DNA of 51,579 nt from Pseudomonadota bacterium (GCA_021794385.1 JAJYQY010000051.1:1-51579), one strand, 5' to 3'. Counted from the first letter of the stretch, positions 9,598 through 51,579 are shown. Made by a program: numbers and translations. The notes: generated by a model from the sequence alone, not told the origin.

Positions 9598-9865
9598 ATC
9601 GACCTCCTGGCCGTTGTCACCAATCCGTCACACTGCGTGTAAAAACGTGCTTCACCAAAGAAAGCCCCATCATACGCTGACGGGGTCTTGTCCATCCGGT
9701 AATCGCGCAACAGTTCGCCACTTACCTTGCCGTGGCGTTGATATAATCCATCAACTGCCGTGTCAGTTCCAGCCGGTCCTCCGCACGCCCTGGTGCCCGG
9801 TCCTCTCCAGGAACTTCCGGGCCGCGTCCGCATCGACTTCCAGCAAAATACGGCTGCGTGACCAG

Positions 9866-9894
9866 TTGCTCACCTATACCCATATAGGTATAAT
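9866..9894 (+). promoter_or_regulatory. Candidate sigma-70 promoter with embedded operator for the toxin-antitoxin module
   Basis: TTGCTC - 17 bp - TATAAT, with inverted repeat ACCTATA-CCCA-TATAGGT (9872-9889) in the spacer. Confidence 0.6.
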
Positions 9895-9900
9895 CCTGCC

Positions 9901-10263
9901 ATGGGCTCCGGCAGGAAAAAACTGGAATGGGTAGGGTCTGCGAAAAAAAGACCTCAAGGCTTTGCCGGAAGCCGTGCAGGATATTTTTGGCTATGCGCTG
10001 TTTCTGGCCCAGGCTGGCGGCAAGCACCATCAGGCCAAGCCTCCAGGGCTTTGGGTCCCTGGCGTGCTCGAAGTGGTTGAGGAGTTCGATAAGGACACCT
10101 TATAGACCCGTGTATACGGTGAGCTTTGCCAACGCCGTGGATGTGCTGCACTGCTTCAAGTAAGAAGTCCACGCAGGGCAAAGAGACGCCGAAGCCGGAT
10201 ATGGATTTGATACGCACCCGTTTGCAGGCGGCGGCAAGGCACGCCAAGGATCAGCGAAAATGA
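9901..10263 (+). pseudogene. Decayed HigB/RelE-like (Gp49/DUF891-type) toxin
   Basis: Joining frames gives MGSGRKKLEWVGSAKK/DLKALPEAVQDIFGYALFLAQAGGKHHQAKP/LQGFG/GVLEVVEEFDKDT/YRPVYTVSFANAVDVLHCFK/KKSTQGKETPKPDMDLIRTRLQAAARHAKDQRK; several indels. Confidence 0.75.
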
Positions 10264-10571
10264 GCATTGAAATCGAAGAAGGTACAGGCAACGTCTATGC
10301 GGACCTTGGACTGCCCGATGCCGAGGAAATGTTGCTCAAGGCACAACTGGCTAACAGGATAGGGACTCTTTTGCGTGAAAAAGGCTGGTCCCAGCAGCAC
10401 GCCGCGGAGGTCTTGGGCATCCCGCAACCAAAGCTCTCCATGCTGTTGCGCGGCCGGTTTCGCGGAATCAGCGAGGCCAAGATGCTCGAATGCCTGTCAC
10501 GGTTGGGTCGAGACGTGCAGATTGTCATTGGACCCGAGCGGCAGGGGCATGGGCAGGTTCACGTTGTATGA
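10260..10571 (+). CDS. XRE/HigA-like helix-turn-helix antitoxin
   Basis: KAQLANRIGTLLREKGWSQQHAAEVLGIPQPKLSMLLRGRFRGIS HTH; directly downstream of toxin remnant. Confidence 0.85.
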   Translation: MSIEIEEGTGNVYADLGLPDAEEMLLKAQLANRIGTLLREKGWSQQHAAEVLGIPQPKLSMLLRGRFRGISEAKMLECLSRLGRDVQIVIGPERQGHGQVHVV

Positions 10572-10672
10572 AATGGGCCTGATCGATGGCTGACATGCAG
10601 TTGGGGATTTTTTGCAGACGTAACGCTTTGCCGCGTTGATCTGCTGGAAACCGAGGGACAGGTAGGGACGCA

Positions 10673-11731
10673 ATGACCAGGAAGCCGAAGGATCCGAAAA
10701 CGACACGTAAACAGTCAACAGGCAACGGCGAGAGGCTTGCCGACCTGGCTTACAGTTTTATTCATAACGGCGACGTGCATGCCGAAGTCCCCATGGTCAC
10801 GGCGATTCGTGAAGCTTTGGCGCAAGGAAACCGGGATGCCATTACCATGGCGGTGATGGCGCTCATGATCAAAGACCCGGATATCGCTATGGAGTTTGTC
10901 GCCATTTGTATCCGGCACGCCTGTATGCGCTTTGAGAACCACTACCCATCCGTCAGCCATGTCATGGGGATACCCATTGCCGAATCCGAGCCGATCACCT
11001 TTGCCAAGAGCCGACTCAGGCAACTGCACGAGGTGGTTGTGGCGTCGGGATTGGCATGCCCGGATGCGGACATCCATTTCCATCCCACCACGGTAGACCT
11101 GGAAAACCTGGTGACCGCGCATCCCTGCGAAATCGCCAGCTTGCATGATCAGATACCTGCCCACAAAGCACTACCCCGCCACCTCATTAAAAAACTGAAC
11201 GAACTGGAAGATCCGGATGATCGTCTGCAGGTGCTTTTAATGGTGATCGCGGTGCCGAAAGACCAAGAGACTTGCCTGGACCTGGAATCTTTTGACACGG
11301 AACGGCAGGCGGCCCTTGCACAATCGGTATCCCAATTGCTTTTCGGTGGTCAAACCATAGTAGCCCCACCAGATATCTTGTCCAACATCCTCTGTGGTGA
11401 TACGGACGAGGAGGATGGGCAAGCCGATCTGGAGCAAGAGTTTTCGGATGCATTGATGCACGCCATTGCCGAACTGGGAACATCGGACCTGGAGGCGAGT
11501 ATCGAGGAACCAGATGAAATGACCTTGCAGATCACGTTATGCGAATCCCCGGAAAACTGCTGGAATGTCCAAGTCGAGTATGGCAAGGCGGACTGGTCCC
11601 GGTCGGATGCGTTCATGATGGTCTATGATGTCATGAAGGATGCGGGGATCGTCGCCATATTGCTGAACGATGCGGAGGATGAGGCGGAAATCGTTGATGG
11701 GAGGCCGCCAGACGAGGTGGTGCGGCATTGA
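10673..11731 (+). CDS. Hypothetical protein, 352 aa, inside island
   Basis: Long intact ORF with acidic C-terminal half; no family recognised. Confidence 0.65.
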   Translation: MTRKPKDPKTTRKQSTGNGERLADLAYSFIHNGDVHAEVPMVTAIREALAQGNRDAITMAVMALMIKDPDIAMEFVAICIRHACMRFENHYPSVSHVMGIPIAESEPITFAKSRLRQLHEVVVASGLACPDADIHFHPTTVDLENLVTAHPCEIASLHDQIPAHKALPRHLIKKLNELEDPDDRLQVLLMVIAVPKDQETCLDLESFDTERQAALAQSVSQLLFGGQTIVAPPDILSNILCGDTDEEDGQADLEQEFSDALMHAIAELGTSDLEASIEEPDEMTLQITLCESPENCWNVQVEYGKADWSRSDAFMMVYDVMKDAGIVAILLNDAEDEAEIVDGRPPDEVVRH

Positions 11732-11952
11732 TGACCGCTTCCTAGGAATTCCTAGAAAGCGGTATCCTTCATGAAGATCTGGTTCAACTGAAAACAGCCA
11801 AGTCCTTATCCTCACCAGCAACGACTGCCCCGGCATATGTGGTCCGTGTCAATATAAACAATGGGTTACAAAATTCCGTCCCAGCGGGACATGTCATGTT
11901 TTCATAAGTAAATGAAAATAAAGGTGAAACAATGATTTTGGCAGGGGCAAAA

Positions 11953-11976
11953 ATGGCTCATGGCAGGCATTATAGC
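11953..11976 (+). repeat. Right flanking direct repeat of island
   Basis: ATGGCTCATGGCAGGCATTATAGC. Confidence 0.85.
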
Positions 11977-12010
11977 CGGTTTCCTGCCGCGGCCTAGAGA
12001 GGAGAGAGGC

Positions 12011-12505
12011 ATGGTGCAGTCATTGGTTGGTGTGGTGATGGGCAGTAACAGCGATTGGGAAGTGATGCGGCACGCTGCGGCGCAGCTTCGCGTCCTGGAG
12101 GTGCCTTTTGAACTGCGGGTGGTGTCGGCCCATCGCACCCCGGATCTCTTGTTTCAATACGCCGAAACGGCTGCTTCCAGGGGGCTGCGCTGCATCATTG
12201 CTGGCGCCGGCGGCGCGGCGCACCTGCCGGGGATGTTGGCGGCCAAGACCCCGTTACCCGTCTTGGGGGTGCCGGTACCCTCGCGCTATCTCAAGGGCAT
12301 GGACTCCCTGCTGTCCATCGTCCAGATGCCCAAGGGGGTGCCGGTGGCCACCTTCGCCATCGGTGAGGCCGGCGCCGCCAATGCGGCTTTGTTTGCCGCC
12401 GCGCTGCTGGCGGCGGGGGATGCAGCGTTGGCGGCCCGTCTCCAGGCCTTCCGGGCGGAGCAGGAAGCGGCGGTGCTGGCCATGACCATCCCGGAGGAGG
12501 AGTGA
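12011..12505 (+). CDS. purE: 5-(carboxyamino)imidazole ribonucleotide mutase
   Basis: [38 protein letters not shown] motifs. Confidence 0.95.
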
Positions 12506-13638
12506 TCCTCCCCGGCGCCACCCTGGGGATCCTTGGCGGCGGGCAATTGGGGCAAATGTTCAGCCTGGCGGCCCTGCGCCTGGGTTACCGGGTCCTGGTC
12601 CTCGACCCCGACCCCCACTGTCCCGCAGCGGCGGTGGCCAGCCGCCATCTCTGTGCGGATTACGATGACCCCGCGGCCCTGGCCGATCTGGCGCGCACCT
12701 GCGCCGCCGTGAGTACCGAATTTGAAAACGTATCGGCAGCCGCCCTGGAGGTTCTGGCCCAGCACCTGCCGGTGCGCCCGGCACCCGATGCCGTGGCCAT
12801 CGTGCAGGACCGTATTCGGGAAAAGGGCTTTTTGCGCGATCTGGATTTGGCCACGGCACCCTTCGCGGTCATCCATGCCGAAGGCGATCTGCATGCCGCC
12901 TGGCGGAGCGTGGGCCGGCCGGCCATTCTGAAACGGGCGCGTTTCGGTTACGACGGCAAGGGCCAGGCCGGCGTAGACGATGGGGATGCCCTGGCCTCGG
13001 CCTGGGCCGCCATGGGGCAGGCACCTGCCGTCCTCGAAGCCCGCATCGCCCTCCGCCAGGAGTTGTCGGTGGTACTGGCCCGGGGCGGAGACGGGATGAT
13101 GGTCTTCTATCCCGTCGCGGAAAACATCCACCGGAATGGCATTCTCGACCTCAGCATCGTCCCCGCCCGCTGCCCCGCGGCGCTCCAGCAGGAGGCGCGG
13201 CAGATGGCCGCCCGCATCGCCACGGCCCTCGATTATGTGGGCACCATGGCAGTGGAGTACTTTGTGGATGAGACAGGGCGCCTCCTCGTGAATGAGATTG
13301 CCCCGCGTCCCCATAACAGCGGGCATTTCAGTATCGACGCCTGCGTGCAGAGCCAGTTCGACCAGCAGGTGCGCGCCCTCTGCGGCCTGCCCCTGGGCGA
13401 CACCCGCCTGCTGAGTCCCGTGGTGATGATGAATCTCCTGGGCGATCTCTGGGGGGAGGGCGAACCGGACTGGTCCGCCCTCTTTCGCCATCCGCAGCTC
13501 AAGCTCCACCTCTACGGCAAGGCCGAGGCCCGCCCCGGGCGCAAGATGGGGCATGTGCATGCCTTGGCCGCCGACAGCGCCCAGGCCATCGCCGTGCTGG
13601 AAGCCCTGCGCGCCGACTGGGGATGGCCGAAGATCTGA
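12502..13638 (+). CDS. purK: 5-(carboxyamino)imidazole ribonucleotide synthase (GTG start)
   Basis: [16 protein letters not shown]-grasp, [18 protein letters not shown]; 4-bp overlap with purE. Confidence 0.95.
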
Positions 13639-13660
13639 GGGCAGGGGTGCTGGGCGTTGT

Positions 13661-13702
13661 CCTAGATCCGGCGGTTGGCAGGAGCATTTTGCCGTTTTTC
13701 GT
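13661..13702 (-). repeat. MITE/REP-like palindromic repeat, copy A (partial)
   Basis: CCTAGATCCGGCGGTTGGCAGGAGCATTTTGCCGTTTTTC, similar to terminus of the 20682-20879 copy. Confidence 0.55.
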
Positions 13703-13790
13703 GTTGTGCATTCGCCGGCCCCCCTGCATGCTGACCATCCGGTCGGCACTGTGGTAGACTGGGTTGCAATGGCAAAAAACGAGGGCAGTC

Positions 13791-15893
13791 ATGGGTCGAG
13801 TACGCATTCCCACCCTTCTCCTGGACGGTACTGATGCGGAGGCCAAGCGGGAAGAGATCCGCCGCACTTTCCATCAGACCTCCCTGCTCTATGAACAACT
13901 CTTCGATCATCTGGCCAGCCCCGAGGCCTGGTATCATAAGGCCATTGCCCTGCGTCATCCCCTCATTTTCTACTTTGGTCACACCGCGGTCTTTTTTGTG
14001 AACAAGCTGCAGGTGGCAGGGCTGATTCGGCAGCGGTTGGACCCGGACTTTGAATCCATCTTTGCCGTGGGCGTGGACGAGATGTCCTGGGATGATCTGG
14101 ATGAAACCCATTACGACTGGCCCAGCCTAGAGGCAGTGCGGGCCTATCGGGCCGAGTTGCGGGAGCTGGTGGACGGCGTAATCCGCACCTTGCCGCTGAC
14201 CCTGCCTATCACCTGGGACTCGCCCTGGTGGGCCATTCTCATGGCTATCGAGCACGAAAATATTCACCTGGAAACCAGTTCCGTGCTCATGCGTCAGCTC
14301 CCCCTGTCCTTGCTGCGGCTGGTAGCGGGTTGGGAGCCTTGGCTGGAAAGCGGCATCCCCCCGGAAAACGCCCTGCTGCCCGTGGCGGGAGGGCGGGTGC
14401 GCCTCGGCAAGGCGCGCGATGCTCGACTCTATGGCTGGGACAACGAATATGGTGAGCATGAGGTGGAGCTCAAGGATTTTGCCGCCGGGCGATATCTGGT
14501 GAGCAATGGCGAATTTCTGCCCTTTGTGGAGGCCGGGGGCTATACCGATCCCCGCTGGTGGACGGCGGAGGGGGATAACTGGCGGCGCTTTGCTCGCCCG
14601 GAGCATCCGAGCTTCTGGGTGGCGGTTGCCGGCGGCTGGAAACTACGGCTGATCGCTGCCGAGCGGCCCATGCCCTGGGACTGGCCGGTGGAGGTGAACT
14701 GCCTGGAGGCCGAGGCCTTCTGCACCTGGAAATCTGCGCAAAGCGGAGTCCGTGTACGCCTGCCCAGTGAAGACGAATGGCGCCGCCTGCGTGATCTTTC
14801 CGGCATTCCCGACGTGGACAAATGGCTGGAAGCACCCGCCAATATCGGCTTGGCTTACGGGGTTTCGCCGTGCCCGGTGCAGCATTTTCGCCACGGGGAT
14901 TTTTATGATGTCATCGGTAACGTCTGGCAGTGGACCGCGACTCCCATCTATCCCTTCAGCGGTTTTGCCGTGCACCCCTATTATGATGATTTTACCACCC
15001 CGACCTTTGATCAGCAGCATAATCTGATCAAGGGCGGCTCGTTCATTGCTTTGGGCAACGAAATGCAGCAGGAAGCGCGCTATGCCTTTCGCCGTCATTT
15101 TTTCCAGCATGCGGGCTTTCGTTATGTGCGTTCCGCTAATCCTTTGCCCGAAGTGCCGGTCTATGAAAGCGATGCGGCTATTTCCCAGTATTGCGATTTT
15201 CACTATGGGCCCGAGCACTTTGGCGTAGAGAATTTCCCCGCAGCATTGGCAGAGTTGGCGGTAAAGGCCATGGCCGGGCGGCCCCTGCGGCGGGCGTTGG
15301 ACATCGGTTGCGCCGTCGGGCGGAGCAGTTTTACGCTGGCGCGCCATTGTCCCGAGGTGACGGGGCTGGATTTTTCTGCCCGTTTCATCCAGGTGGGGGT
15401 GCGGCTGCGGGACCAGGGGAGTTTTTCCTACACCCTGGTGGAAGAAGGGGATCTGCTGAGTTATCACACAGCGCGCCTGGCGGATCTGGATCTGGCCGCT
15501 ACCGCGGGGCGGGTGCAGTTTGTTCAGGCCGATGCCTGCAATCTCAAGCCGCTGTACAAGAATTACGATTTGGTCATCGCCGCCAATCTCATCGACCGCC
15601 TGTACCAGCCGCGCAAATTCCTCCAAGAAATCCCCAACCGGATCGTTTCCGGCGGTATTCTCGTGCTGAGCTCGCCCTACACCTGGCTGGCGGAACACAC
15701 GCCCAGGGAAGAATGGCTGGGCGGCTTCAAGCGCAACGGCGAGAACTTCACCACCCTGGATGCCCTGCGCGAGCTCCTGGCACCCCATTTCCGCCTGCTC
15801 CAAGGGCCTTTTGATCAGCCCTTCGTCATCCGCGAGACGGCCCGCAAGTATCAGCACAGCCTGGCCCAGGTCACGCTCTGGGAGCGCTTGTGA
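13791..15893 (+). CDS. ovoA: 5-histidylcysteine sulfoxide synthase / putative 4-mercaptohistidine N1-methyltransferase (OvoA)
   Basis: DinB-like N-terminus, FGE-sulfatase domain (GNVWQWTATPIYPFSGFAVHPYYDDFTTPTFD...LIKGGSFIALGNEMQ...HAGFRYVRS), C-terminal SAM methyltransferase (ALDIGCAVGRSSFTLA). Confidence 0.9.
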   Translation: MGRVRIPTLLLDGTDAEAKREEIRRTFHQTSLLYEQLFDHLASPEAWYHKAIALRHPLIFYFGHTAVFFVNKLQVAGLIRQRLDPDFESIFAVGVDEMSWDDLDETHYDWPSLEAVRAYRAELRELVDGVIRTLPLTLPITWDSPWWAILMAIEHENIHLETSSVLMRQLPLSLLRLVAGWEPWLESGIPPENALLPVAGGRVRLGKARDARLYGWDNEYGEHEVELKDFAAGRYLVSNGEFLPFVEAGGYTDPRWWTAEGDNWRRFARPEHPSFWVAVAGGWKLRLIAAERPMPWDWPVEVNCLEAEAFCTWKSAQSGVRVRLPSEDEWRRLRDLSGIPDVDKWLEAPANIGLAYGVSPCPVQHFRHGDFYDVIGNVWQWTATPIYPFSGFAVHPYYDDFTTPTFDQQHNLIKGGSFIALGNEMQQEARYAFRRHFFQHAGFRYVRSANPLPEVPVYESDAAISQYCDFHYGPEHFGVENFPAALAELAVKAMAGRPLRRALDIGCAVGRSSFTLARHCPEVTGLDFSARFIQVGVRLRDQGSFSYTLVEEGDLLSYHTARLADLDLAATAGRVQFVQADACNLKPLYKNYDLVIAANLIDRLYQPRKFLQEIPNRIVSGGILVLSSPYTWLAEHTPREEWLGGFKRNGENFTTLDALRELLAPHFRLLQGPFDQPFVIRETARKYQHSLAQVTLWERL

Positions 15894-21716: not shown

Positions 21717-21898
21717 GGGGATCTCCTGGGTTCATTGGCTTTCCAGGAGACGAGCAATACTCGTGCCATAAGCATGATCCATTGTTAAAACAATGGGATG
21801 TCTCTATGGTCCAGGCCATTCTGGTGAGTTTCTGTCACCGCCGGACGACAATCCGGCGAGCAGGGTGGTCCTTACACGCCGTTTTTTCGCCGCACTCC

Positions 21899-37775: not shown

Positions 37776-39128
37776 TCAGACGTCAATGGCATACTTCTCC
37801 ATGAGCCGATACAGCGTGATGCGGGTGACGTCGAGGGCACGCGCCGCCGCAGAGATGTTTTTGCCAGAGGCGTGAATGGCCGCGATGATGGCCTGCCGGT
37901 CGGCTTTTTCCCGTGCCTTGTCCAGGCGTGTCAGGGATTCCAGATCCGATGCCGGGATGCCCAGGTCATCAATGGAGATTTGCGCATGTTCCCCCATCAC
38001 CATGGCGCGACGTATGCGGTTGACCAATTCGCGGACGTTCCCTGGCCAGGAATAGCTGCTCATGGCATCCAGGGCAGCCTGGCTGATCCCCTTGATGGCG
38101 GGATTTTTCTCGTGGGCGAAGCGCTGAAAAAAGTACTGGGCGAGGAGGGGAACGTCGCCTTCCCGTTCCCGTAGGGCCGGTACCTGAAGACGCAATACAT
38201 TGATGCGATAATATAAATCTTCCCGGAATGTGCCCGCCTTGACGGCTGCTTCCAGGTCGACATGGGTCGCGGCTACGATGCGCACGTCCGAGCGTAGGCT
38301 TTGGGTGGCTCCAACGCGCTCGAACTGCTGCTCTTGCAGGAAGCGTAACAGATTGACTTGCATGGGAAAGGGGAGGTCGCCGATTTCGTCGAGAAAAAGG
38401 GTCCCCCCTGCCGCTGCCTCGATTTTACCGATTTTACGCTCATGAGCTCCGGTAAAGGCCCCCTTCTCGTGACCAAAGAGTTCGGATTGCATGAGTTGCT
38501 CGGGGATGGCGCCGCAGTTGAGGGCGACAAAGGGCTGGCCGGCGCGGCGCGAATGCTCGTGGATGGCCAGTGCGGTGAGCTCTTTGCCGGTGCCGGTTTC
38601 CCCGGTGATGAGCACAGGTGCATCCACGGCGGCGGTGCGGTGGACTTGCCGGAATAGTTCCAGCATGGCCTTGCTGGCGCCCATGAGGCTGTCCACAGGA
38701 TGGGGATCAGCACTGCCGTTGGCAATGGTCGCTACGCCATAGGCATGGCCCAGGCTATAAAAGAGGCGCGGCAGTTGGAGGGGAAAGGTATGGTAATCGA
38801 AACAGCATTGGGCAACGAAGCGGCGTAGACGCGGGTTGCGCAAGCTGTCGCGATGGACGATGGCGACCAGTTGGGCATGGGCGGCAGATCGGCAAAAGAC
38901 TGCTTCCATCTGGCGTAGCGATTTTTCTTCCCCGTCCAGATAGACCAACACCGTGTGCAAGGAATTGTGCCGTAGTTGCCACTCCAGATCTTGCTCGGTA
39001 CTGACCCAACTGGGTTCCCAGCCGTCGCTGCGCAGCCGGGCCGCAGACAGATCAGGGATGGGGGTTGGGCTGAATACAAGTAAGGGTCGTACCGAGACCA
39101 AGCTTTGGGCGACGGGCGTATGGGACAT
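37776..39128 (-). CDS. Sigma-54-dependent activator, VpsR-like
   Basis: GETGTGKEL, intact [29 protein letters not shown]-terminal Fis-type HTH; receiver-like N-terminus. Confidence 0.85.
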
Positions 39129-40280: not shown

Positions 40281-43200
40281 GTGTCCGCCGTTTCCATTGC
40301 ATCAGACCTATTGCCCATCTTCCTTGCTCCGGAGCCGGAGGACGAGGCTTTGCTGCGACGGTATGGTCCCGCGATCGCTCTGCGGGGGAGGGATTTTGCC
40401 GAACGCTGGGTGGCGTTGCTGAGAGGGGATCCTGGTCTGCAATCCATCCTGAATGAAGCATTTTTGTCACGAGCGCAGACGATGATGGAGGCGCATTATG
40501 CGGCCATCCTCTGCGCAGATTACGACGTAGCACGTCGGCGAGTGCTGCACGAAGCAGGGGCTGTTCATCAACGGATGGCTATACCCATACAATGGATGGC
40601 ATCCATCTATGGATTGCTGGCCGAAGATTTTCAGCAAGGGGTAGAGGCCCTAGGGCTGCCGGAGGAGGAGACGAGAAAGCTCCGGCATGCCCTCGGTTGG
40701 CGTCTCCAGCTCGATGCTTTCTGGCTGGAGGAGGGTTTTCAGCAGGCAGCAGCCCAGCGGAGAGCATCCCGCGAGGCATTTTATCTTGCTATCACGCAAG
40801 TCAATCGTTTGCTGACCTACCCGCAAACCGAGGCTTCGGAGGAGCACATCCTCTCCCAGGTGGTCACGCTCCTCGCGGAAACTTTGGCGGCGCCCATGGT
40901 CTGGATCGGCATAGTCCGCTGCGGTGAGACGGAATTGTCCCTTACCGCTGGGGCCGGCCCGGCTGCCCAGCCTTTTGTTGGCATCCGCCTCTCCGTTGAT
41001 CCTGCCAAGCCCGAGGGCAATGGTCCGAGCGGCCAGGCCATCCGTTCGGGGCGCCCTTACATCTGCCACCGGGATGATCCGATCATGGCACCCTGGCGGG
41101 AGTTGGCCATGGCCAACGGCATTGAGGGCTTCGCCGGTGCACCTTTCTACTTTGGCGATGGCGACCGGGGTATCCTCTCCATTTACCGGCGCGATGGGGA
41201 GACTTTCCCCGAGGATCTCATCGATCTAATTTCCCGACTGGCGGAAGACCTGGGAGCCTTTTTTGGCCGACGGCAAACGGCGCTGGAATTGTTGCGTTTG
41301 CGCCATTACCAAAAAGTCGTGGAAATCCTGCATCAGGAAATGCTCCGTCAGCCACCCCCGGAGATACTTTATCAACGCTTGGCGCAACTGCTTTTGGAGT
41401 ACACCGATGCCCTCGCGGTTGTGGTATGGATGGTGATACCGGGTGATGACTGGCTGCGGCAGGTGGCGGTAGAGGCGCGCGACCCGGAGCGCGCGGAGGC
41501 CCTGGCGCAACTGAAAGTTTCCCTGAATCCGGAACATTATCCCCACGGCAGGATGGCGACCGCCCGTACTTATCACGCGGGTGCCCCTATCATCATAGAA
41601 GACGTGTGGAAAGATCCGGATGTCCAATTGGGTTGGGGGGCATCATCCCTTTGGCAGGGGGTGCGCAGCCTCGGCGGATGGCCCATCTTTGCGGGAACAG
41701 GGACGATGCCGGTGGCCGTCCTCATGGTGGAATCGGCCGAGACCCGTTATTTCAGTCCGGAGTTGCAGAGCCTGCTCAATCAACTGGTGGGTAGTATTCA
41801 TATTGCACTGGATGAATACCACAGCCGCCAGCAACTGGCGGCTGAGCGCGAGTCACATGCCTGGCAGGCCCATCACGACTACCTCACCGGTCTGCCCAAT
41901 CGCTTGGGTCTCTCCCGGCGCCTGGGCGATGCCATGGCGCGGGCGTTGCGCCACGGGCGGCTCCTTGGGGTAGGCATCCTGGATCTCGACGACTTCAAGG
42001 CCATCAACGACACCCATGGGCATGCCACGGGCGACCGTCTGTTGATGGCCTTGGCGGGGCGCCTGAGCCAGGTCTTGCGGCATACGGACTTTGCGGCGCG
42101 CCTCGGGGGCGATGAGTTTGTGCTGGTTCTGGAGGATCTGCGTGACCTGGGAGACCTTGAAACCATCATTAGCAAAGTGGGTCAGATTATCGAAGCACCT
42201 TTCGATCTTGCCGAAGGCCTCAATCTCCAGGTGCGCGGCAGTATAGGCCTCACCATCTATCCATTGGATGACAGCGATGCCGACTTGCTCCTTCGCCATA
42301 GCGATCAAGCGCTTTATGCAAAAAAGGCAGAAAAAGGGCAGCGCGATCGCTTCTGGGGCTATTACAGCGACTCCCTGGATCAATACCATAAAGCCGGGAG
42401 AACACCACGGTCCTTGCTGGGAAGTGGTGGCCTGCGGGTTTTTTACCAGCCTATCCTGGATCTGACCAGTAATCGTGTCGTCAGGATAGAAGCCCTGGCC
42501 CGGCTGGAAAATAGTGAAGGTGTCATTCTCCTGCCAAAGGAATTTTTGCCCCAATTCAACCTTGAAGACCAGCGAACGCTGACGCAGTTAATGCTCACCC
42601 AGGCGATTACCGATCTCGCAGAACTGGATAATAGCGCCCATTCCCTCCGGCTATCGGTCAATGTTACGCCGGAATTGCTGCTTTCTGGTACCTGTCTGCG
42701 CTGTTTGGAGAACATTCTGCCGTCTAGCGGTATTAAGGCGGGGCGTATCACCCTGGAGATCCTGGAGGGTTGCAATTCCCTCTCCTTGGAGGAGGCCCGG
42801 GAGCGGATCCGCGAGGTGAAGGAACTTGGTCTGCGGGTCGCCTTGGATGATATCGGCAGCGCCTATTCTTCCCTGCTGCGACTGAAAGAGTTGCCTATCG
42901 ACGAAATCAAGCTGGGCCAGGATTTTGTCCATACCCTGAAAACCAACCCCAATGGCTTTCATTTTATCGCCACGCTGCTGGACCTGAGTCGTAGCCTGCG
43001 CGTAGATTTCGTGGCCGAAGGATGCGAAACGGGTGATGTGCTTGATGCGCTGAAGGTTTTGAATGTCCCCATGGTCCAAGGCTACGCTATTGCCCCTGCC
43101 ATGTCCTTCGATGTGCTCCGTGACTGGCTGTTACAGGCCCGACCTCTGCGCGAGGATTCCCTCCATAGCCTACTGGGTATTTATGCCTATCATCTTTCCA

Positions 43201-43490
43201 ATTTCAGCCTGCTTCAGGGCATGGCATTGAAAAATCCTCAATGGCTGGCAGAAATACCGATGCAGGCGATACCATCATTCCCCATCAATCGTATCATTGC
43301 CTCTCGGGGTTTGACCGGTACCGCCATAGACGTCGCTCATCACACGTATCACCGGGCCCTGGAGGCGACGATCAATACCTTCAAAGCAGAGGGGATGGTG
43401 GATTGGACGGCGGCTGAGGATGCTGCGACCTTCTTTCAACAAAGCCTGCTAGAGGCAATTCGTGAGAAAAACGGCGATGGGAGTGCATAA
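40281..43490 (+). CDS. Globin-coupled sensor GAF-GGDEF-EAL protein (GTG start)
   Basis: Globin-sensor-like N-terminus (VHQRMAIPIQWMASIYG), RLGGDEFVLVLEDL, IEALARL, ALDDIGSAYSSLLRLKELPIDEIKLGQD. Confidence 0.85.
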   Translation: MSAVSIASDLLPIFLAPEPEDEALLRRYGPAIALRGRDFAERWVALLRGDPGLQSILNEAFLSRAQTMMEAHYAAILCADYDVARRRVLHEAGAVHQRMAIPIQWMASIYGLLAEDFQQGVEALGLPEEETRKLRHALGWRLQLDAFWLEEGFQQAAAQRRASREAFYLAITQVNRLLTYPQTEASEEHILSQVVTLLAETLAAPMVWIGIVRCGETELSLTAGAGPAAQPFVGIRLSVDPAKPEGNGPSGQAIRSGRPYICHRDDPIMAPWRELAMANGIEGFAGAPFYFGDGDRGILSIYRRDGETFPEDLIDLISRLAEDLGAFFGRRQTALELLRLRHYQKVVEILHQEMLRQPPPEILYQRLAQLLLEYTDALAVVVWMVIPGDDWLRQVAVEARDPERAEALAQLKVSLNPEHYPHGRMATARTYHAGAPIIIEDVWKDPDVQLGWGASSLWQGVRSLGGWPIFAGTGTMPVAVLMVESAETRYFSPELQSLLNQLVGSIHIALDEYHSRQQLAAERESHAWQAHHDYLTGLPNRLGLSRRLGDAMARALRHGRLLGVGILDLDDFKAINDTHGHATGDRLLMALAGRLSQVLRHTDFAARLGGDEFVLVLEDLRDLGDLETIISKVGQIIEAPFDLAEGLNLQVRGSIGLTIYPLDDSDADLLLRHSDQALYAKKAEKGQRDRFWGYYSDSLDQYHKAGRTPRSLLGSGGLRVFYQPILDLTSNRVVRIEALARLENSEGVILLPKEFLPQFNLEDQRTLTQLMLTQAITDLAELDNSAHSLRLSVNVTPELLLSGTCLRCLENILPSSGIKAGRITLEILEGCNSLSLEEARERIREVKELGLRVALDDIGSAYSSLLRLKELPIDEIKLGQDFVHTLKTNPNGFHFIATLLDLSRSLRVDFVAEGCETGDVLDALKVLNVPMVQGYAIAPAMSFDVLRDWLLQARPLREDSLHSLLGIYAYHLSNFSLLQGMALKNPQWLAEIPMQAIPSFPINRIIASRGLTGTAIDVAHHTYHRALEATINTFKAEGMVDWTAAEDAATFFQQSLLEAIREKNGDGSA

Positions 43491-43532: not shown

Positions 43533-45698
43533 CTATAGGGCAGCACTTTCTGCGGTATGATACATATAGACTGGGGCTATTGAGCTTCCTACGGGATCCC
43601 CGAATTCTTCCTTGATACGCACCAATTGGCGCTGATATTTCCCTTGGATCATCATCTGTATATCGGCTATAGGCCCTAGGGTATCGTAGGTGAGGAAAAA
43701 GCGTGGGCCACCATTGGCGTCAACCGAAATTAGTCCGATCCCTTGTTGCATGGTGGCCGGTACATCCGCGCGATGGTAAAGCACTGGAATCCAGTGTTGC
43801 GCTCCCAATTCATGAAATCCTTGCCCGGTCAACCAGACGTGTAGATTTTCCAATGGCGTACGTATCCGATCGGAAAGTCCCAGAATCCGCCATTGCAGGT
43901 CGGAGCCGTAGAGGAAAAGGCCCAGGCGATCCTTGCTGGCTTCATCCGTCCACAGAAAACGGCAACCAATGGCATGTGCTTTGTTCGATTTCTTGTGATC
44001 TTCCGCGATGATTTTTGCGGAAAACGGGATTTCCTGATTGGGTAAGATGATCGTACCGGTAATGATGCTATGGGCCGCTATCTTTTGTACGAGCCGCGAG
44101 TATATGCGAAAACCGGACAGGGAAATGTTCTCGGCGACCGCCAACTCGGAAGAGGCCAAAGGAACATCAATACGCACGGCCATGGGTACCGGGAAACGAT
44201 AATCATTGCGCCGATGTCGGCGGAATATGGTGGTGACGATTACCAGTGTGGCCAGACCAAGATTGATGCAGGCCCAGAAAACGTTACCAATCAGCGCCCA
44301 GGCCGGAAGCGGAGCGTGCCCGGATAACCTCAAAACACCCACGGGAATGGCAATAGCATTGACCGCGAATATGGCATATTGGGGAATCATATAATGATGA
44401 TCTCCATGCGCATGAGAGGACTCTTTGGGAGTCACGTGGAACCTGATCGTTCTTCTCAAAAATCCTGTGGTGGAGACGATCAGTGCCCAGAATCGCGCCA
44501 TGTTGAACTGTTCTGTTTGCAGTATTCTGCCATAACCGCGATTAATTTCTTCAAAAGCAATAAACGTCAACAAGTAGTAAGGCAAGAAGTGCCAAAGAAA
44601 CTGGCGCATACCGATATCTACGATGGGTAACCACCCCAAGAAAAGAACGACGCCCGGGGCGATATAAAAAATGGCTTTCTGCCAACCATCAAAATAGGTG
44701 ATGGCCGATGCCAGATAATTCAGTCGCTGGGGGATGGTCAGACCGCGGGTAAGGAGGATGCCTTCCTTGCGCCAAACCTGCATCGCCCCCTGCCCCCAAC
44801 GTATGCGCTGGGTCAGATACGGGCCAATGGCCAGGGGTGCCAGGCCATAAGCCAGAGGCTGGGCATGATACACGGACGCGTAGCCTTTTTTATGCAAGCG
44901 AAGGGAGGTATGAAGGTCTTCCGTGACCGTGCCGGTGGCAAAACCACCAATGGCATCCAGGGCAGATCGGCGGATAACGGCACAGCTACCGCAAAAAAAA
45001 GCGGAATTCCAGTAATCCTTGCCCCGTTGTATGACCCGGAAAAAGAGCGACTGTTCAGACCAGATACTATGACTTTTGGGGAGCTTCAGGTGTTGATAGG
45101 AGTCCAGATTGTAGAAATCCTGCGGTGTTTGCACAAAAGCCACGTTTTTATCATTGAAATAGCCCAAAGTTTTGGTGAGAAATTCCTTTGACGGCACATG
45201 ATCCGCATCGAAAATTGCCAGGTAATCGGCATCTACCTGTTGGAGAGCGTTGTTTAAGGTACCGGCTTTGGCATGACTATTGTCCACACGGGTGATACAA
45301 GTGCAACCCAAGTCATGCGCAAGATGCTGCATTTCCGGGCGACGACCGTCGTCCAGAAGATAGGTCTGGTGCGGATAATCCATGTGGATGGCGCCGAGCA
45401 GGGTTTGGCGTACAATCGATAATGGTTCATTTAGGCTGGGGACCAGGACGGCTACCCGGAGGCCGGACGGCGCCGGCGGGGAATTGCGTATGGTCAGGCG
45501 CCAGGTCATAAATAGATGCAGCATAATGGTAAAAAAACTAAATAGCTCTGCTCCATATAAAATAATGGAAAATATCATATGGTTCTCATTCAATATTCCG
45601 GCGCGCCACGGGAGATACCATAACGCTGTCAATAAGAACAGGAGCACTATTATCCATGTTCCTTTGCTGAGGGATTCATAAGAAACCTGCTTATCCAT
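43533..45698 (-). CDS. BcsA-like processive glycosyltransferase with PilZ domain
   Basis: LLDDGRRPEM, FDADHVP, TEDLHTSL, QRIRWGQG; RRNDYR and NISLSG PilZ motifs. Confidence 0.88.
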   Translation of the reverse strand: MDKQVSYESLSKGTWIIVLLFLLTALWYLPWRAGILNENHMIFSIILYGAELFSFFTIMLHLFMTWRLTIRNSPPAPSGLRVAVLVPSLNEPLSIVRQTLLGAIHMDYPHQTYLLDDGRRPEMQHLAHDLGCTCITRVDNSHAKAGTLNNALQQVDADYLAIFDADHVPSKEFLTKTLGYFNDKNVAFVQTPQDFYNLDSYQHLKLPKSHSIWSEQSLFFRVIQRGKDYWNSAFFCGSCAVIRRSALDAIGGFATGTVTEDLHTSLRLHKKGYASVYHAQPLAYGLAPLAIGPYLTQRIRWGQGAMQVWRKEGILLTRGLTIPQRLNYLASAITYFDGWQKAIFYIAPGVVLFLGWLPIVDIGMRQFLWHFLPYYLLTFIAFEEINRGYGRILQTEQFNMARFWALIVSTTGFLRRTIRFHVTPKESSHAHGDHHYMIPQYAIFAVNAIAIPVGVLRLSGHAPLPAWALIGNVFWACINLGLATLVIVTTIFRRHRRNDYRFPVPMAVRIDVPLASSELAVAENISLSGFRIYSRLVQKIAAHSIITGTIILPNQEIPFSAKIIAEDHKKSNKAHAIGCRFLWTDEASKDRLGLFLYGSDLQWRILGLSDRIRTPLENLHVWLTGQGFHELGAQHWIPVLYHRADVPATMQQGIGLISVDANGGPRFFLTYDTLGPIADIQMMIQGKYQRQLVRIKEEFGDPVGSSIAPVYMYHTAESAAL

Positions 45699-46438: not shown

Positions 46439-46454
46439 TGGCACGGGGATTGCT
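46439..46454 (+). promoter_or_regulatory. Sigma-54 promoter, perfect consensus TGGCACG-GGGA-TTGCT
   Basis: All 12 specified consensus positions match; ~110 bp upstream of the FapC-like gene. Confidence 0.9.
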
Positions 46455-46463
46455 AAAAGAAAG

Positions 46464-46489
46464 GCGTCCCCCCGAAGTCTTGGGGACGC
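46464..46489 (+). promoter_or_regulatory. 5'-leader hairpin at predicted transcript start
   Basis: GCGTCCCC-N10-GGGGACGC beginning ~11 nt after the -12 GC. Confidence 0.6.
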
Positions 46490-46563
46490 GTCAAAGCGAC
46501 GAACCAGACCGATCGGGTGATCTCTCTGGGACCTTTTGGTAACACGAATCTTTGGAGGAAGTC

Positions 46564-47604
46564 ATGAAAAAGTCAGCCATTTTAGTTTCGGCCATTTCCC
46601 TCGCCTTTGCTGGTTCTGCCTTTGCATGGACCACGCCGCCCGCCGTTCACGCCAGCAGCGACAAGACCACCACTGGTAAGGTATCGGGCAATTCGGTAAA
46701 TACGTTCAGCGGAAAGAGCCAGTTTGGCAATAGCCAAACCAATATCGGCTCTGATGCGGTCATCAATGGCAGTGCGTTCAGAAATGCTGCCGGTGTGATT
46801 TCCGGCAACCAGAACAGTGGTGCCAACAGCGAGGCATCGAACCAGACCAACCTTCAGGTAAACACGGTTGCCGGTGTACTGGATACCTCGGCCAAGACCA
46901 ATGGTTCGGGTGAGGTCAGCTCCAATACCGTTGAAGTGGGAACCATTGGCGCTACCATCAACTATGATGGTAACAGCTACATGGGTGATAATGCCTTCAG
47001 CTATGCCTCCGGCATCATCTCCGTGAACCAGAACAGCGGCGCCAACAGCCTGTTGCAGAACCAGACCAATGTGGAGGTGAATCAGTTGAGCCAAGCCTGT
47101 GCGAACGGCTCTTGTTTCGGCGGGACAGCGTATAGCTCGGCCGCGCTGAAGGGTATGGTCAAAGGTAACAGCCTTACCGTCTATACCAACCCTTCTAGCA
47201 CTTATTATTACGGTTATTACGGTCGGCCGATGACCAACTACAACGCCAATGCCACCATCAATGGCGCTGCGTTTAGTAACGCCAGCGGTATCATCTCCGC
47301 CAGCCAGAACTCCGGTGCCAACAGTCTGCTGCAGAACCAGACGGTCGTACAGGCGAGCACCTTGGGCAAGAGCACCGGCCATCTGAGCGATACCTTGGGC
47401 GGAGCGGTGACCGGCAATATGCTGAAGGTGACCGCGACGGGCAATCCCTCTAATCCCTATCAGTTCACCCAAACCAACTATGCGGCCAATGCCACCATCG
47501 GCGGCACCGCCTTCTCCAATGCTGCGGGCGTGATTTCCGTGAACCAGAACACCGGCGCCAACAGCATGCTGCAAAACCAGACCTCGATCCAGGTCAACAA
47601 GTAA
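46564..47604 (+). CDS. Secreted FapC-like repeat protein, putative functional amyloid subunit
   Basis: Signal peptide; four units of GxVxGNxLxV ... AFxNAxGIISxNQNSGANSLLQNQTxVxVN. Confidence 0.75.
   Translation: MKKSAILVSAISLAFAGSAFAWTTPPAVHASSDKTTTGKVSGNSVNTFSGKSQFGNSQTNIGSDAVINGSAFRNAAGVISGNQNSGANSEASNQTNLQVNTVAGVLDTSAKTNGSGEVSSNTVEVGTIGATINYDGNSYMGDNAFSYASGIISVNQNSGANSLLQNQTNVEVNQLSQACANGSCFGGTAYSSAALKGMVKGNSLTVYTNPSSTYYYGYYGRPMTNYNANATINGAAFSNASGIISASQNSGANSLLQNQTVVQASTLGKSTGHLSDTLGGAVTGNMLKVTATGNPSNPYQFTQTNYAANATIGGTAFSNAAGVISVNQNTGANSMLQNQTSIQVNK
46759..47598 (+). repeat. Four in-frame repeats of the amyloid-like motif
   Basis: Cores at 46759-46863, 46978-47082, 47254-47358, 47494-47598. 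Confidence 0.85.
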
Positions 47605-47679
47605 GTCACGCGATGCAAGGTGGGGGATGCCGGAGTCTCGGCATTCCTCATTTTTTCTAAGAATGTGAGGAGAGAGATC

Positions 47680-48039
47680 ATGAACATTCGCATGCGTTAC
47701 TTATTCATGACGGGTCTTTTGCTGTCCTGGGCACTCGGCGCGCAAGCGGCGGTCTTGCCCTTGGATGGCGCGTCCGCTTTGGCCGTTCTGGGTCATGCCG
47801 TAGGCACCCAGGCGTTAGTAAACTCTGCGGGCAAGGCTTTGCCCAACCAGAGTCTGTCCACTCTGGTGATGAATGGGGCCTCAGCGGGAAATACGGTAGG
47901 CAATGGGGTTGTTACCGGCAGCAACATCATCCAGGGCGGAGCCTTTGGCAATGCCTCCGGTTTTGTAACGGTCATTCAGAACTCCGGCAACAATGTTCTT
48001 ATCCAGAATGCCATGCAGATCAACCTGACTATGCATTGA
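47680..48039 (+). CDS. Secreted single-repeat FapB-like protein
   Basis: Signal peptide; GNTVGNGVVTGSNIIQGGAFGNASGFVTVIQNSGNNVLIQNAMQINL. Confidence 0.65.
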   Translation: MNIRMRYLFMTGLLLSWALGAQAAVLPLDGASALAVLGHAVGTQALVNSAGKALPNQSLSTLVMNGASAGNTVGNGVVTGSNIIQGGAFGNASGFVTVIQNSGNNVLIQNAMQINLTMH

Positions 48040-48051
48040 CGGGAGTCTTTC

Positions 48052-48765
48052 ATGTTTTATAAACGCTGGTTGTTGGCAATTACCCTATTATTGGTCACGC
48101 TGCCTCTGAGTCAGGGACGGGCCGTGGCCGATGTCTTTTTGACGACCGCCGGCGGTCAGTTCCGTATCCCCGTCAAAAGCATGAATGCCATGCGCTTTCA
48201 GTCGGTGATTCACCAGCAGTTTGATTTCAGTTGTGGATCGGCAGCCGTGGCCACGTTACTCACCTATAGCTATGACGATCCCACCAAAGAGATGAAAGTC
48301 TTCAAGTGGATGTGGGATCACGGTGATAAGCCAGTCATTGAGAAGGAGGGGTTCTCCCTTCTCGACATGAAAAACTATCTGGAAGCCCACGGCTTTGCCG
48401 CCAACGGCTTCCGGACCTCTTTAAGCAATCTGGTCAAGGTGAATTTGCCCGCCATTGCGCTCATCGATTTCAATGGTTACATGCATTTTGTGGTGGTCAA
48501 AGGGGTCGACCGGGAGGATGTGCTGGTCGGCGATCCGGCTTTGGGTCTACGCCTCATTCCCCGGAAATATTTTGATGCCATGTGGAAAAAAAATGGGATT
48601 CTTTTTGTCATTACCAGTGGGCCAGGCATCAAGATGGCCAAGGATACGTTTAACAATATTGCCGAATGGGACAAGGTACCACGGGCACCGCTGGCGGCGG
48701 CCATGCAGCAGCAACCACCCCTGGGTTCCTTTCTTCTGCTTCTGCCGCGGGCAGGGAGTTTTTGA
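48052..48765 (+). CDS. C39-family cysteine peptidase, FapD-like
   Basis: QQFDFSCGSAAVATLLTYSYDD (Q, C), YMHFVVVKG (H), VGDPALG (D); N-terminal signal peptide. Confidence 0.85.
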   Translation: MFYKRWLLAITLLLVTLPLSQGRAVADVFLTTAGGQFRIPVKSMNAMRFQSVIHQQFDFSCGSAAVATLLTYSYDDPTKEMKVFKWMWDHGDKPVIEKEGFSLLDMKNYLEAHGFAANGFRTSLSNLVKVNLPAIALIDFNGYMHFVVVKGVDREDVLVGDPALGLRLIPRKYFDAMWKKNGILFVITSGPGIKMAKDTFNNIAEWDKVPRAPLAAAMQQQPPLGSFLLLLPRAGSF

Positions 48766-48788
48766 AACACGTTAAATATAAGGAGGAA

Positions 48789-49343
48789 ATGATCGTGATT
48801 AAGATCGCTTGCAAGTCGAATCAATCTTTCCAACGCCCACTCATAGGTATCGTGGCCATTCTTTGTATGGCAGGGCCGATCAGCGCATCGGCAATGTCTG
48901 TACTAGGGATCCCGGTCCCTAGCACGGAGTTAGCAAAATTGCGCGGTGGTTTCGATGTCGGGGGTATGGTGGTGAAGTTTGGTGTAGAGATGACCACCTA
49001 TATCAATGGGATGCTGGCATCGCGCTCAGGTATTGATAGTGGCCCGAGCGGTAATAGTATAATGGCGTCGCAGAATACCGTCATTCAGCAGACTACGGTG
49101 GCGACACAGGGAAATGGTATGCAGCAGGTGGTGCAGGTGGGAAATGCGAACCAGGTTTCCAGCAGCCTCCTCAACCAGGCTACCAGTGCCTTGGCGGTGG
49201 TACAGAACAACCTCAATAATCAGGTGATTCAACATGCGACGGTGATCAATCTGGATGTCAGCAACGGTATCCGTACCCAGCAGTTGACTCAGATCGGTCA
49301 GTCCTTGCAGCAGGGTAACATTCGAAGTTTGGCCATCCCGTAG
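48789..49343 (+). CDS. Secreted protein with double-glycine-type motif, amyloid-operon component
   Basis: Signal peptide then STELAKLRGG|FDVGGMVVKFGVEMTTYING; Gln/Asn-rich C-terminal half; strong AGGAGG RBS. Confidence 0.65.
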   Translation: MIVIKIACKSNQSFQRPLIGIVAILCMAGPISASAMSVLGIPVPSTELAKLRGGFDVGGMVVKFGVEMTTYINGMLASRSGIDSGPSGNSIMASQNTVIQQTTVATQGNGMQQVVQVGNANQVSSSLLNQATSALAVVQNNLNNQVIQHATVINLDVSNGIRTQQLTQIGQSLQQGNIRSLAIP

Positions 49344-49369
49344 GCGGATATGGCGGGAAGGGGGATGCT

Positions 49370-49786
49370 ATGTTTGAGAAGATGATACGGACGATGGTCA
49401 GTACCGGAATGGTGCTGGGGATATGGGCTTGGGCGCCGGTCATGGCGGCAGAGCCATCGGGCGATCAACCCCTTCCGGTAATGCGGCTGACAGCCTTCAA
49501 TAGCGCAGCCATTGTCAGCAATGCCGCTTTGCGACAGGCCCGGGGCGGGGAAATGCTTGTTCCTGGCTTGGCGGCCTCTGCCCGCCAAATGCGGGTGGTC
49601 ATGCTCTGGGATGAACTGCCCCCGGCCACATCCGCCAACGCCCAGGGCACGGGTGGCAGCTCCCGGGGCAACATCCAAGGTGGTGTCAGACCGATCGCGC
49701 CGCAGCCGGTGGTGCCAGCCCTGCCCAATTTGCAAAATCTGCCTGCGTCCGTGGGGCAGTCAGCGGGTTTCTTCAGCGGCAATTAA
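49370..49786 (+). CDS. Secreted hypothetical protein with double-glycine-type motif
   Basis: Signal peptide MVLGIWAWAPVMAA; SNAALRQARGG|EMLVPG. Confidence 0.6.
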   Translation: MFEKMIRTMVSTGMVLGIWAWAPVMAAEPSGDQPLPVMRLTAFNSAAIVSNAALRQARGGEMLVPGLAASARQMRVVMLWDELPPATSANAQGTGGSSRGNIQGGVRPIAPQPVVPALPNLQNLPASVGQSAGFFSGN

Positions 49787-49975
49787 ATGGCCATGGAAAA
49801 AGGGTGAGGAGCGGCAATGGCTCCTTCGTTTTTTTCGCTATGTGGCAATGAGGGATGGTAGCAGCCGATGCCAAAATCAACCCGAAGCCGTGAGGTGGAC
49901 CTGGTTCTCTTGCCCCACTCCCATGGGGACGCAGGCATCATGGCGCGTAGGACGGAATATAAGGAAAAGAGAGGA

Positions 49976-50668
49976 ATGGCAATGCGTTGTCGGATCGGCA
50001 TGGTGGTACTGGTGGGGGTGTGCATGGGAGTGGAGCCGGCCATGGCTCAATCCTTGCTGCTGGGAGGCACGCAGTTGGCGCCGGGAAACTCCTATAGCTA
50101 TCTGGGGGCGATCATGCCTTTTGCGGGTGCGCGTCTGGGATCCGGCTGGTTTGGGACGGTCTTTGCCAATTACCTGACTTATCATTACAACACTACACCG
50201 ACGGTGAGCGTCAAGGCTCCTGGTATTCAGGGTGGTTTGGGGTATGCATGGCAGGGCGCCGCCTATCAGTTGGCCCTCTCGGGCGCTTTGGGTTATCAGT
50301 ACTTTTCGCTCCATCCCGATCTCGGAGCAGGGGGGCCGGTGGGTGGCATCGTCACCTTCAGCCCCCAGATCCAGGCGAGCTACGATTTCACCCCCATGCT
50401 CTATGCCAGCACCATAGCCAGCTATTCCTTTGGCCAGCGCGCCTACTGGAGCCGGTTCCGGGGAGGGATCAGGCCGGTGTCCTGGCTGAGTTTCGGCCCC
50501 GAAGGTATCTTGCAGGGGGGGATCAATTATCGCATTCGCCAAGTAGGAGCCTTTATCTCCGTTGCCCTGGGTGATGGCTGGAGGGTGGAAGGGGAGGGTG
50601 GAGTCAACTACACCAGTGGTCTGGGCAGTACCGGATACGGAGGCTTTTCCTTCACCAAGACGCTGTAA
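49976..50668 (+). CDS. BcsS-like outer-membrane beta-barrel protein
   Basis: Signal peptide; alternating beta strands, GIQGGLGYAWQGAAYQLALSGALGYQY, FGPEGILQGGINYRIRQVGAFIS. Confidence 0.65.
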   Translation: MAMRCRIGMVVLVGVCMGVEPAMAQSLLLGGTQLAPGNSYSYLGAIMPFAGARLGSGWFGTVFANYLTYHYNTTPTVSVKAPGIQGGLGYAWQGAAYQLALSGALGYQYFSLHPDLGAGGPVGGIVTFSPQIQASYDFTPMLYASTIASYSFGQRAYWSRFRGGIRPVSWLSFGPEGILQGGINYRIRQVGAFISVALGDGWRVEGEGGVNYTSGLGSTGYGGFSFTKTL

Positions 50669-50755: not shown

Positions 50756-51579
50756 CTAGAATGTGTAAGGGACCCGCAGGGTGAGTTGCACGTCGGGCGC
50801 TTGGCGCGTGGCGCCCACGGCCAGATTCAGATTGATTGCCGTGTTTTTATTGACGGTATAGGACCAGCCCACGAGGAAAGATCCCACTTCCAGGGTGGTG
50901 GCCAGGGGCGGGGTAATGCCACCCACTTTGGGCGGACTGACGATGCTTTGGCTGTAGCCCAGGCTGACCGAGGCGCGGTCGTTCAGGGACAGGCCCGCGC
51001 CAAAACCAAAGCCGATGGCGTTGCCCGGGCTGATGTAGGTGCCAGCGGCATTGTGGCCAATGTTCCACAAGTAGCTCACATTCCCGTAAAAAACGGCCGG
51101 ATCTGAGGGATAGAGCACCGTGAGGCTGGGCTGCACACCCCAGAAACCGGTTCCGGTGGGCTGCTGTTCGAGAATGCCGGCGGGATAGCTCTGATAGGTG
51201 GGCATGCTGAACGGGCTGCTGCCTGTCATGCTTTTTACTTGCAAATTCGCAATGTAATAGGGCGAGCCATTACCCCCCTGATTGATCTGGTAATGCATGG
51301 AGAGCTCGATGTCTCCCAGACCGGATCCCGTACTGTTGAAGGCTTGCTGGACACCGTTATTGGTCAGGTTGGAGACGGACGTATTTTGTTGGGCATAGAC
51401 GAAAGGTATCCTGAGGTCCATCTGCAGGCGGTTGGTCAGCCCGTAGCGAAAAGTGAGGCCCGTATAGACGGTGTCGTTGGTGTATTGCTGGATATTGATA
51501 TTGCCAATGGCCAGCACCTGGGCCAGGACGAAGCCCTGGACAGCGGCGATGCTCGATGACGAGTGGGCGTATTGGATGA
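50756..51579 (-). CDS. Outer-membrane transporter-like beta-barrel protein, 5' end beyond window
   Basis: IQYAHSSSSIAAVQGFVLAQVLAIGNINIQQYTNDTVYTGLTFRYGLTNRLQMDLRIPF; resembles PF13557-type barrels; terminal Phe. Confidence 0.65.
   Translation of the reverse strand, partial: IQYAHSSSSIAAVQGFVLAQVLAIGNINIQQYTNDTVYTGLTFRYGLTNRLQMDLRIPFVYAQQNTSVSNLTNNGVQQAFNSTGSGLGDIELSMHYQINQGGNGSPYYIANLQVKSMTGSSPFSMPTYQSYPAGILEQQPTGTGFWGVQPSLTVLYPSDPAVFYGNVSYLWNIGHNAAGTYISPGNAIGFGFGAGLSLNDRASVSLGYSQSIVSPPKVGGITPPLATTLEVGSFLVGWSYTVNKNTAINLNLAVGATRQAPDVQLTLRVPYTF

Follow-up and report, generated by a model that had tools for sequence, protein, structure and literature searches.

A slightly unusual Fap operon of the Acidithiobacillaceae and a candidate C39-type leader site in FapE

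Background

The closest described relatives of the locus considered here are the functional-amyloid (Fap) operons, fapABCDEF in Pseudomonas, where a change of the catalytic cysteine in the C39 protease FapD (C38A) abolishes secretion of FapC (PMC5557850). The substrate of FapD was listed as yet to be determined in a 2018 review, which also records fapD-fapF pairs in five further phyla (PMC6173800); FapE has been suspected as that substrate by authors who reported seeing no canonical C39 sequence (PMC5557850). Fap has previously been reported in Acidithiobacillus, with a FapC of 4-8 repeats and a FapB of two, and the same study gives the absence of fapA as the commonest deviation and a detached fapF as another (PMC3792158). 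The fapA gene is absent in 6 of 16 Fap-bearing genera and is not vital for fibres (PMC3792158, PMC6173800). In F. caldus, FapD and FapF have been detected in vesicles by proteomics (PMC10853474).

Here we describe a locus in a stretch of 51,579 nucleotides from a Pseudomonadota bacterium (GCA_021794385.1, JAJYQY010000051.1:1-51579), hereafter the window. The window is the whole of contig C105, the end of which falls inside fapF; its source genome is about 72% complete, and several of the compared genomes are also incomplete. We consider the locus a genuine, slightly unusual Fap operon of the Acidithiobacillaceae belonging to a distinct "RGG" subtype. Because Fap in Acidithiobacillus and its deviations have been published, the core of this finding is not new: the new elements are the C39-type leader site in FapE and the RGG subtype, whereas Acidithiobacillus Fap, the missing fapA and the detached fapF were already known. 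The view of the initial annotation, made from the sequence alone, that the system may be undescribed survives for these two elements, for which we found no published description within an incomplete coverage of the literature, but most of the rest is in print (PMC3792158, PMC10853474).

Results and Discussion

Identity of the operon

The initial annotation had listed six consecutive genes on one strand, encoding a four-repeat protein, a one-repeat relative, a C39 peptidase with complete Q/C/H/D residues, two small secreted GG-motif proteins and a BcsS-like barrel, and all of these were recovered at their places (Table 1; protein lengths in amino acids, aa). Its assignment to a Fap-like system with a FapD-type protease is likewise upheld, with NCBIfam Fap models matching the FapB-type repeats (E 2.7e-14), FapD (E 2e-39) and FapF (E 3.7e-36). 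The FapF match falls on the convergent gene at 50756, which is indeed a barrel gene but was labelled PF13557-like; it has no Pfam match at E ≤ 1, and its match to the crystallised FapF (PDB 5o65) supports the NCBIfam call. The profile searches proposed in the annotation thus gave matches to Fap (NCBIfam) and BcsS (PF17036) families, but for both repeat proteins no Pfam family was found at E ≤ 1, curlin repeats included. Pfam likewise gave no match for either of the GG-motif proteins. A PDB search with the FapC profile also gave no match. We call the four-repeat protein FapC here, the labels FapB and FapC being a matter of convention. No open reading frame (ORF) that could encode FapA was found between the promoter and fapC.

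Close copies of the locus exist in A. ferriphilus (L029/L031) and in an Acidithiobacillus metagenome-assembled genome (L030/L032), with FapD 87-88% identical to that of the window. The full-length FapF copies in L030 and L029/L031, of 350 aa, are 93-94% identical; in L030/L031 the four-repeat subunit is 58-59% identical and the one-repeat subunit 89-92% identical, the latter falling to 40-44% in the sister family. The complete order fapC-fapB-fapD-fapE-GG2-bcsS with a convergent fapF is found in the window and in L030/L032, and the same core without GG2 (the second GG-motif protein) or bcsS is present in two sister-family genomes, where FapD is 50-55% identical. Most other Acidithiobacillaceae with Fap carry a classic locus, with a small upstream gene at the fapA position, a long FapE and a FapD about 35-39% identical. 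The conservation of the neighbourhood, another check that had been proposed, shows the gene order to be kept in related genomes, indicating that the arrangement is not due to chance. Since relatives share the core and vary in GG2 and bcsS, we regard the locus as a genuine Fap locus to which GG2 and BcsS are local additions.

Table 1. Features of the window, with positions counted from its first nucleotide
Feature	Position	Strand	Evidence
Sigma-54 (-24/-12) promoter TGGCACGGGGATTGCT	46439..46454	+	exact consensus match; ~110 bp upstream of first fap gene
FapC-like four-repeat fibre subunit	46564..47604	+	346 aa, Sec-type signal peptide; NF058557 (FapB model) E 2.7e-14, four stretches
One-repeat subunit adjoining fapD, FapB-like by size	47680..48039	+	119 aa, signal peptide
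FapD, predicted periplasmic C39 cysteine protease, signal peptide	48052..48765	+	NF058616 E 2e-39; PF03412 E 3e-19
Short FapE homologue (first GG-motif protein)	48789..49343	+	184 aa; aligns with classic FapE
ELAKLRGG codons, predicted FapD cut after second Gly	48927..48950	+	motif at matching position in 43/43 FapE
GG2, a small secreted protein that may be a second FapD substrate	49370..49786	+	138 aa; signal peptide; conserved stretch around LRQARGG
LRQARGG codons, second predicted double-glycine site	49529..49549	+	invariant in 3/3 GG2 proteins
BcsS-type outer-membrane barrel	49976..50668 (longest ORF from 49868)	+	PF17036 E 1.1e-16, 61.6 bits vs cut-off 24
FapF, amyloid exporter of the outer membrane, truncated at the 5' end by the contig end	50756..51577	-	NF058560 E 3.7e-36; PDB 5o65 E 4.6e-32
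GGDEF-EAL cyclic di-GMP (c-di-GMP) enzyme	40281..43490	+	NF045675 E 6.3e-74; TIGR00254 E 6.9e-34
BcsA-like processive synthase with PilZ domain	43533..45698	-	TIGR03030 E 1.4e-127; PF07238 E 1.1e-7

A leader site in FapE and the RGG subtype

The short FapE of the window gives no direct match to the NCBIfam FapE model, whereas a classic FapE of the family matches it (NF058559, E 1.1e-23). The two forms align with an hhalign probability of 96.8% (E 2e-10) over residues 19-71, that is, the leader and the FGVEM block, so that homology is demonstrated for the N-terminal part only. To describe the leader we used 31 FapE from the order and class plus 12 further RGG-type FapE. Directly before the conserved block, all 43 carry a site of the form LxxhxG[G/R/K] (31/31 and 12/12), with L or M at -7, I, L, M or V at -4, G at -2 and G, R or K at -1; as background, the loose motif occurs in 36 of 581 other ORFs of the same loci (about 6%). 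The C39 leader rule is known from bacteriocin leaders, and ELAKLRGG of the window follows the whole of it, with L(-7), a hydrophobic residue at -4, G(-2) and G(-1), after a signal peptide. Canonical FapE has G-Lys or G-Arg at the place of the double glycine, and the window subtype presents a textbook double-glycine leader exactly where canonical FapE has RG[R/K].

The protease shows a corresponding division. All 42 FapD homologues compared, from both tree groups, have Q55, C61, H145 and D161, and the nearest solved relative is the protease domain of a double-glycine-motif protease (6mpz, E 1.6e-5). In the FapD tree of 43 sequences, one of them a distant C39 protein without a FapE label (L043), the 16 FapD accompanied by RGG-type FapE lie on one side of a branch (support 100/98) and all 26 accompanied by R/K lie opposite, and this division coincides with the deepest split of the tree. 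One genome (G042) carries both FapD types, each with the matching FapE (L080, L132). Acidic residues of the S1 pocket that might explain Arg/Lys at P1 in canonical FapD were sought, and several alignment columns differ between the groups, none of them assignable without a structure.

The RGG type is not confined to the order. Searching with a short-FapE profile added 14 genomes of the class that lie outside the order, and in 12 neighbourhoods from other gammaproteobacterial families (L128-L139) FapE shows RGG in every case, with FapD and FapF beside it in 11; the exception, L134, is a contig of only 2.7 kb. In most of the other RGG-type loci the gene before fapD encodes a one-repeat protein. 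The NCBIfam FapE model, applied to a same-sized sample of the class, found none of the 12 RGG-type FapE and, in G042, only the canonical copy, and RGG-type FapE therefore offers a route to Fap loci that current models miss. GG2 was found in only 3 of the 31 genomes of the order, and its LRQARGG has Ala at -4, making its fit to the C39 leader less good than that of ELAKLRGG. No relatives of GG2 were found in viral contigs.

Because all 43 FapE carry the leader site and the RGG split matches the FapD tree, our comparison suggests FapE as the prime candidate for the FapD substrate, with a predicted cut site. The target of FapD has been a question of Fap biogenesis, for which the window would provide a prediction at the level of single residues. 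More broadly, we tentatively propose a second, unrecognised gammaproteobacterial Fap lineage, in which a free periplasmic C39 protease would mature proteins delivered by Sec, cutting them at true double-glycine leaders. The window clade would have two such substrates, FapE and GG2, and in canonical Fap the same site, as RG[R/K], would be where FapD cuts; taken jointly, these propositions fall somewhat short of an even chance in our estimation.

Three observations on single loci may be added. An ORF of 417 aa, possibly an insertion element, splits fapD in two in L041 (8850-10875, genome G026), leaving a broken fap locus. The distant C39 protein of L043 forms a pair with a FapF-like gene (12078-14007, G030:C35); the pair stands apart from the two FapD groups, and its genome holds an RGG-type locus as well (L033). 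Some of the RGG-type loci in L128-L139 encode putative fibre proteins of very large size in which a single repeat is detectable, for example 789 aa at L131 3414-5783.

Promoter and regulation

Up to 5 kb upstream of fapD was scanned on both strands in 41 fap loci, and exact sigma-54 sites were found on the operon strand in 14 and on the opposite strand in none, with about 0.1 expected. They occur in 10/15 loci of the Acidithiobacillales, 4/16 canonical loci and 0/10 other RGG-type loci. A regulator stands beside fapF in L030/L031, the L030 copy matching a VpsR domain (E 3e-19) and Sigma54_activat (E 6e-73), and homologues of this VpsR-type regulator are found in many fap neighbourhoods. Since an exact sigma-54 promoter is combined with a VpsR-type activator beside fapF in relatives, the sequences suggest that fap may be under c-di-GMP-linked control. 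This would be a candidate regulatory route for a system whose transcription factors, according to the 2018 review, are still to be characterised. In L030/L032 a gene of similar length and start to the GGDEF-EAL gene of the window, not searched against families, lies directly upstream of fapC (L030 1854-5075). Upstream of fap the window contains, besides its GGDEF-EAL gene, another sigma-54 activator (37776-39128, minus strand), 48% identical to the one adjacent to fapF in L030, and a further exact match to the sigma-54 promoter occurs at 21753-21768 (minus strand).

BcsS and the neighbouring polysaccharide genes

The likely start of BcsS is 49976 rather than 49868. The protein is 85% identical in L030 and 41-45% identical to the BcsS of the order. 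In A. ferriphilus, bcsS is reduced to two short fragments lying several hundred unrelated bases from GG2 (L031 3150-4260), and fapF (94% identical) and GG2 are intact despite this decay. As bcsS is fragmented there while fapF is intact, we conclude that amyloid export is not the task of BcsS, which more likely works for the linked BcsA-like synthase; this synthase lies 0.9 kb upstream of fapC and is also linked to fap in L030/L032. The bcsS of the window is outside a cellulose operon: it follows the fap genes, and the BcsA-like gene, about 4 kb away, has no adjoining bcsB or bcsZ. BcsS is probably a polysaccharide (export) accessory that travels with fap.

The six other bcsS loci in the order have bcsB-like and/or bcsZ-like neighbours in five cases, of which bcsS follows a BcsB-type gene and precedes a BcsZ-type one in L089, L090 and L091 (the upstream ORF of L091 being truncated), whereas L092 and L093 have the BcsZ-type gene alone; L088 has neither. 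These neighbours were named from length and sequence, not from family searches. Three nearly complete genomes that have bcsS (G018, G019, G028) lack BcsC and others contain it, which is only suggestive of BcsS standing in for BcsC. Among the classic loci, in L042 fapE is followed by a PgaC-like synthase (E 2e-56) and by a gene that matches PgaA weakly (E 3e-6) (9679-12581), and L039, L040, L041 and L046 have genes like this pair by position and BLAST, L042 being the only one searched against families.

Proposed mechanism and alternatives

From the computed homologies, gene order, conserved leader site, promoter and decay of bcsS we infer, with good probability, the following course. Both repeat subunits, together with FapD, FapE and GG2, would reach the periplasm through Sec. 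There FapD would act on FapE, cutting behind the two glycines of ELAKLRGG, and probably also on GG2, cutting behind LRQARGG. This cleavage would license the subunits for passage through the FapF barrel, and their repeats would form cross-beta fibres at the cell surface. Transcription would start from the sigma-54 promoter; in relatives a VpsR-type sigma-54 activator stands ahead of fapF, and it would probably drive this promoter and so tie it to c-di-GMP. BcsS would most likely partner the neighbouring BcsA-like synthase, with amyloid and polysaccharide laid down together.

Several points weigh against this reading. The FapB, FapD and FapF scores are all below the NCBIfam curated cut-offs, which we take to mark a divergent member of Fap. 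On the FapD tree, Gly versus Arg/Lys is a single change and the co-variation therefore amounts to one event; together with the linkage of fapD and fapE, this means that co-variation supports, and does not prove, recognition. The contig of the window, ending within fapF, does not include the VpsR-like activator found beside that gene in relatives. An Rfam search of the 5' leader detected neither a c-di-GMP riboswitch nor any other RNA, and the leader folds no more strongly than shuffles do (z -0.53). The AlphaFold models of FapC and BcsS, built on 2-3 sequences each, are of very low confidence (pLDDT, the predicted local distance difference test, 37 and 30). Finally, the conserved motif of FapE could serve binding, not cleavage.

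This last point leads to the alternative that FapF or FapD uses the motif, left uncleaved, for docking or as a chaperone site, the target of FapD being FapF or something else. A published suggestion is that FapF contains GG/GA motifs and could undergo processing (PMC5557850), and canonical FapE has G-Lys or G-Arg in place of GG. However, the motif obeys the C39 leader rule at several positions and sits between the signal peptide and the conserved core, the loose motif is found in the N-terminal part of only 4 of 41 FapF, and in Pseudomonas the first ~70 residues of FapE, including the motif region, yield no peptides (PMC5557850); we consider this alternative unlikely while allowing it some weight. 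That the locus is instead a maturation system like those for bacteriocins or ribosomally synthesised and post-translationally modified peptides, unrelated to amyloid, would fit the true double-glycine leaders ELAKLRGG and LRQARGG and the resemblance of the C39 domain to bacteriocin transporter peptidases. It is made very improbable by a C39 protein that is separate, has a signal peptide and lacks a transporter, with FapD as its best model, and by the Fap repeat proteins and FapF that are its neighbours in all subtypes.

The matches of FapD to FilB (7.9e-33) and of the FapF barrel to FilC (6.4e-9) raise the further idea of a Fil-like putative pilus locus, with FilB as C39 protein and FilC as barrel, but the fits to FapD and FapF are better and Fap repeats and FapE are present, leaving this idea little credit. 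The initial annotation had proposed that BcsS or another barrel replaced FapF as amyloid exporter, a proposal favoured by the arrangement in the window and L030, where bcsS continues the row of fap genes. The convergent barrel is FapF, however, and FapF has thus not been replaced; A. ferriphilus retains fapC, fapB, fapD, fapE, GG2 and fapF but only two bcsS fragments, and FapF occurs without BcsS in the sister-family loci and is present in 11 other RGG-type loci. We regard the replacement as scarcely credible and retain a Fap operon with its own FapF.

Comparison with known systems

Like Fap of Pseudomonas, the locus is clustered and encodes repeat fibre subunits, C39 FapD, a FapF barrel and a FapE in which the leader and FGVEM block are shared. 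It differs in lacking fapA, in having four-repeat and one-repeat subunits instead of a three-repeat FapC, and in its short FapE, convergent fapF, exact double-glycine leader and additional GG2 and bcsS. Acidithiobacillus Fap (PMC3792158) and the F. caldus genes Acaty_c0525-c0530 (PMC10853474) belong to the same bacterial family and share the 4-8-repeat FapC, and a detached fapF and missing fapA are among the deviations listed for the former. In contrast to the window, the classic Acidithiobacillus loci examined have the small gene at the fapA position, a FapE of about 250 aa with an xG[K/R] leader and the more distant FapD, and several have a PgaC-like synthase nearby and not BcsA-like and BcsS genes; the PgaC-like and PgaA-type genes would form a pairing of amyloid and polysaccharide parallel to that of the window type. 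The window barrel belongs to the BcsS family (PF17036) of cellulose operons, but its gene follows fap without bcsB or bcsZ, unlike five of the six other bcsS loci in the order. With C39 double-glycine processing by bacteriocin, ComA and PCAT transporters, FapD shares the protease family, catalytic residues and leader consensus, but it is a free periplasmic protease without an ABC transporter, and its candidate substrate arrives by Sec with a signal peptide of its own.

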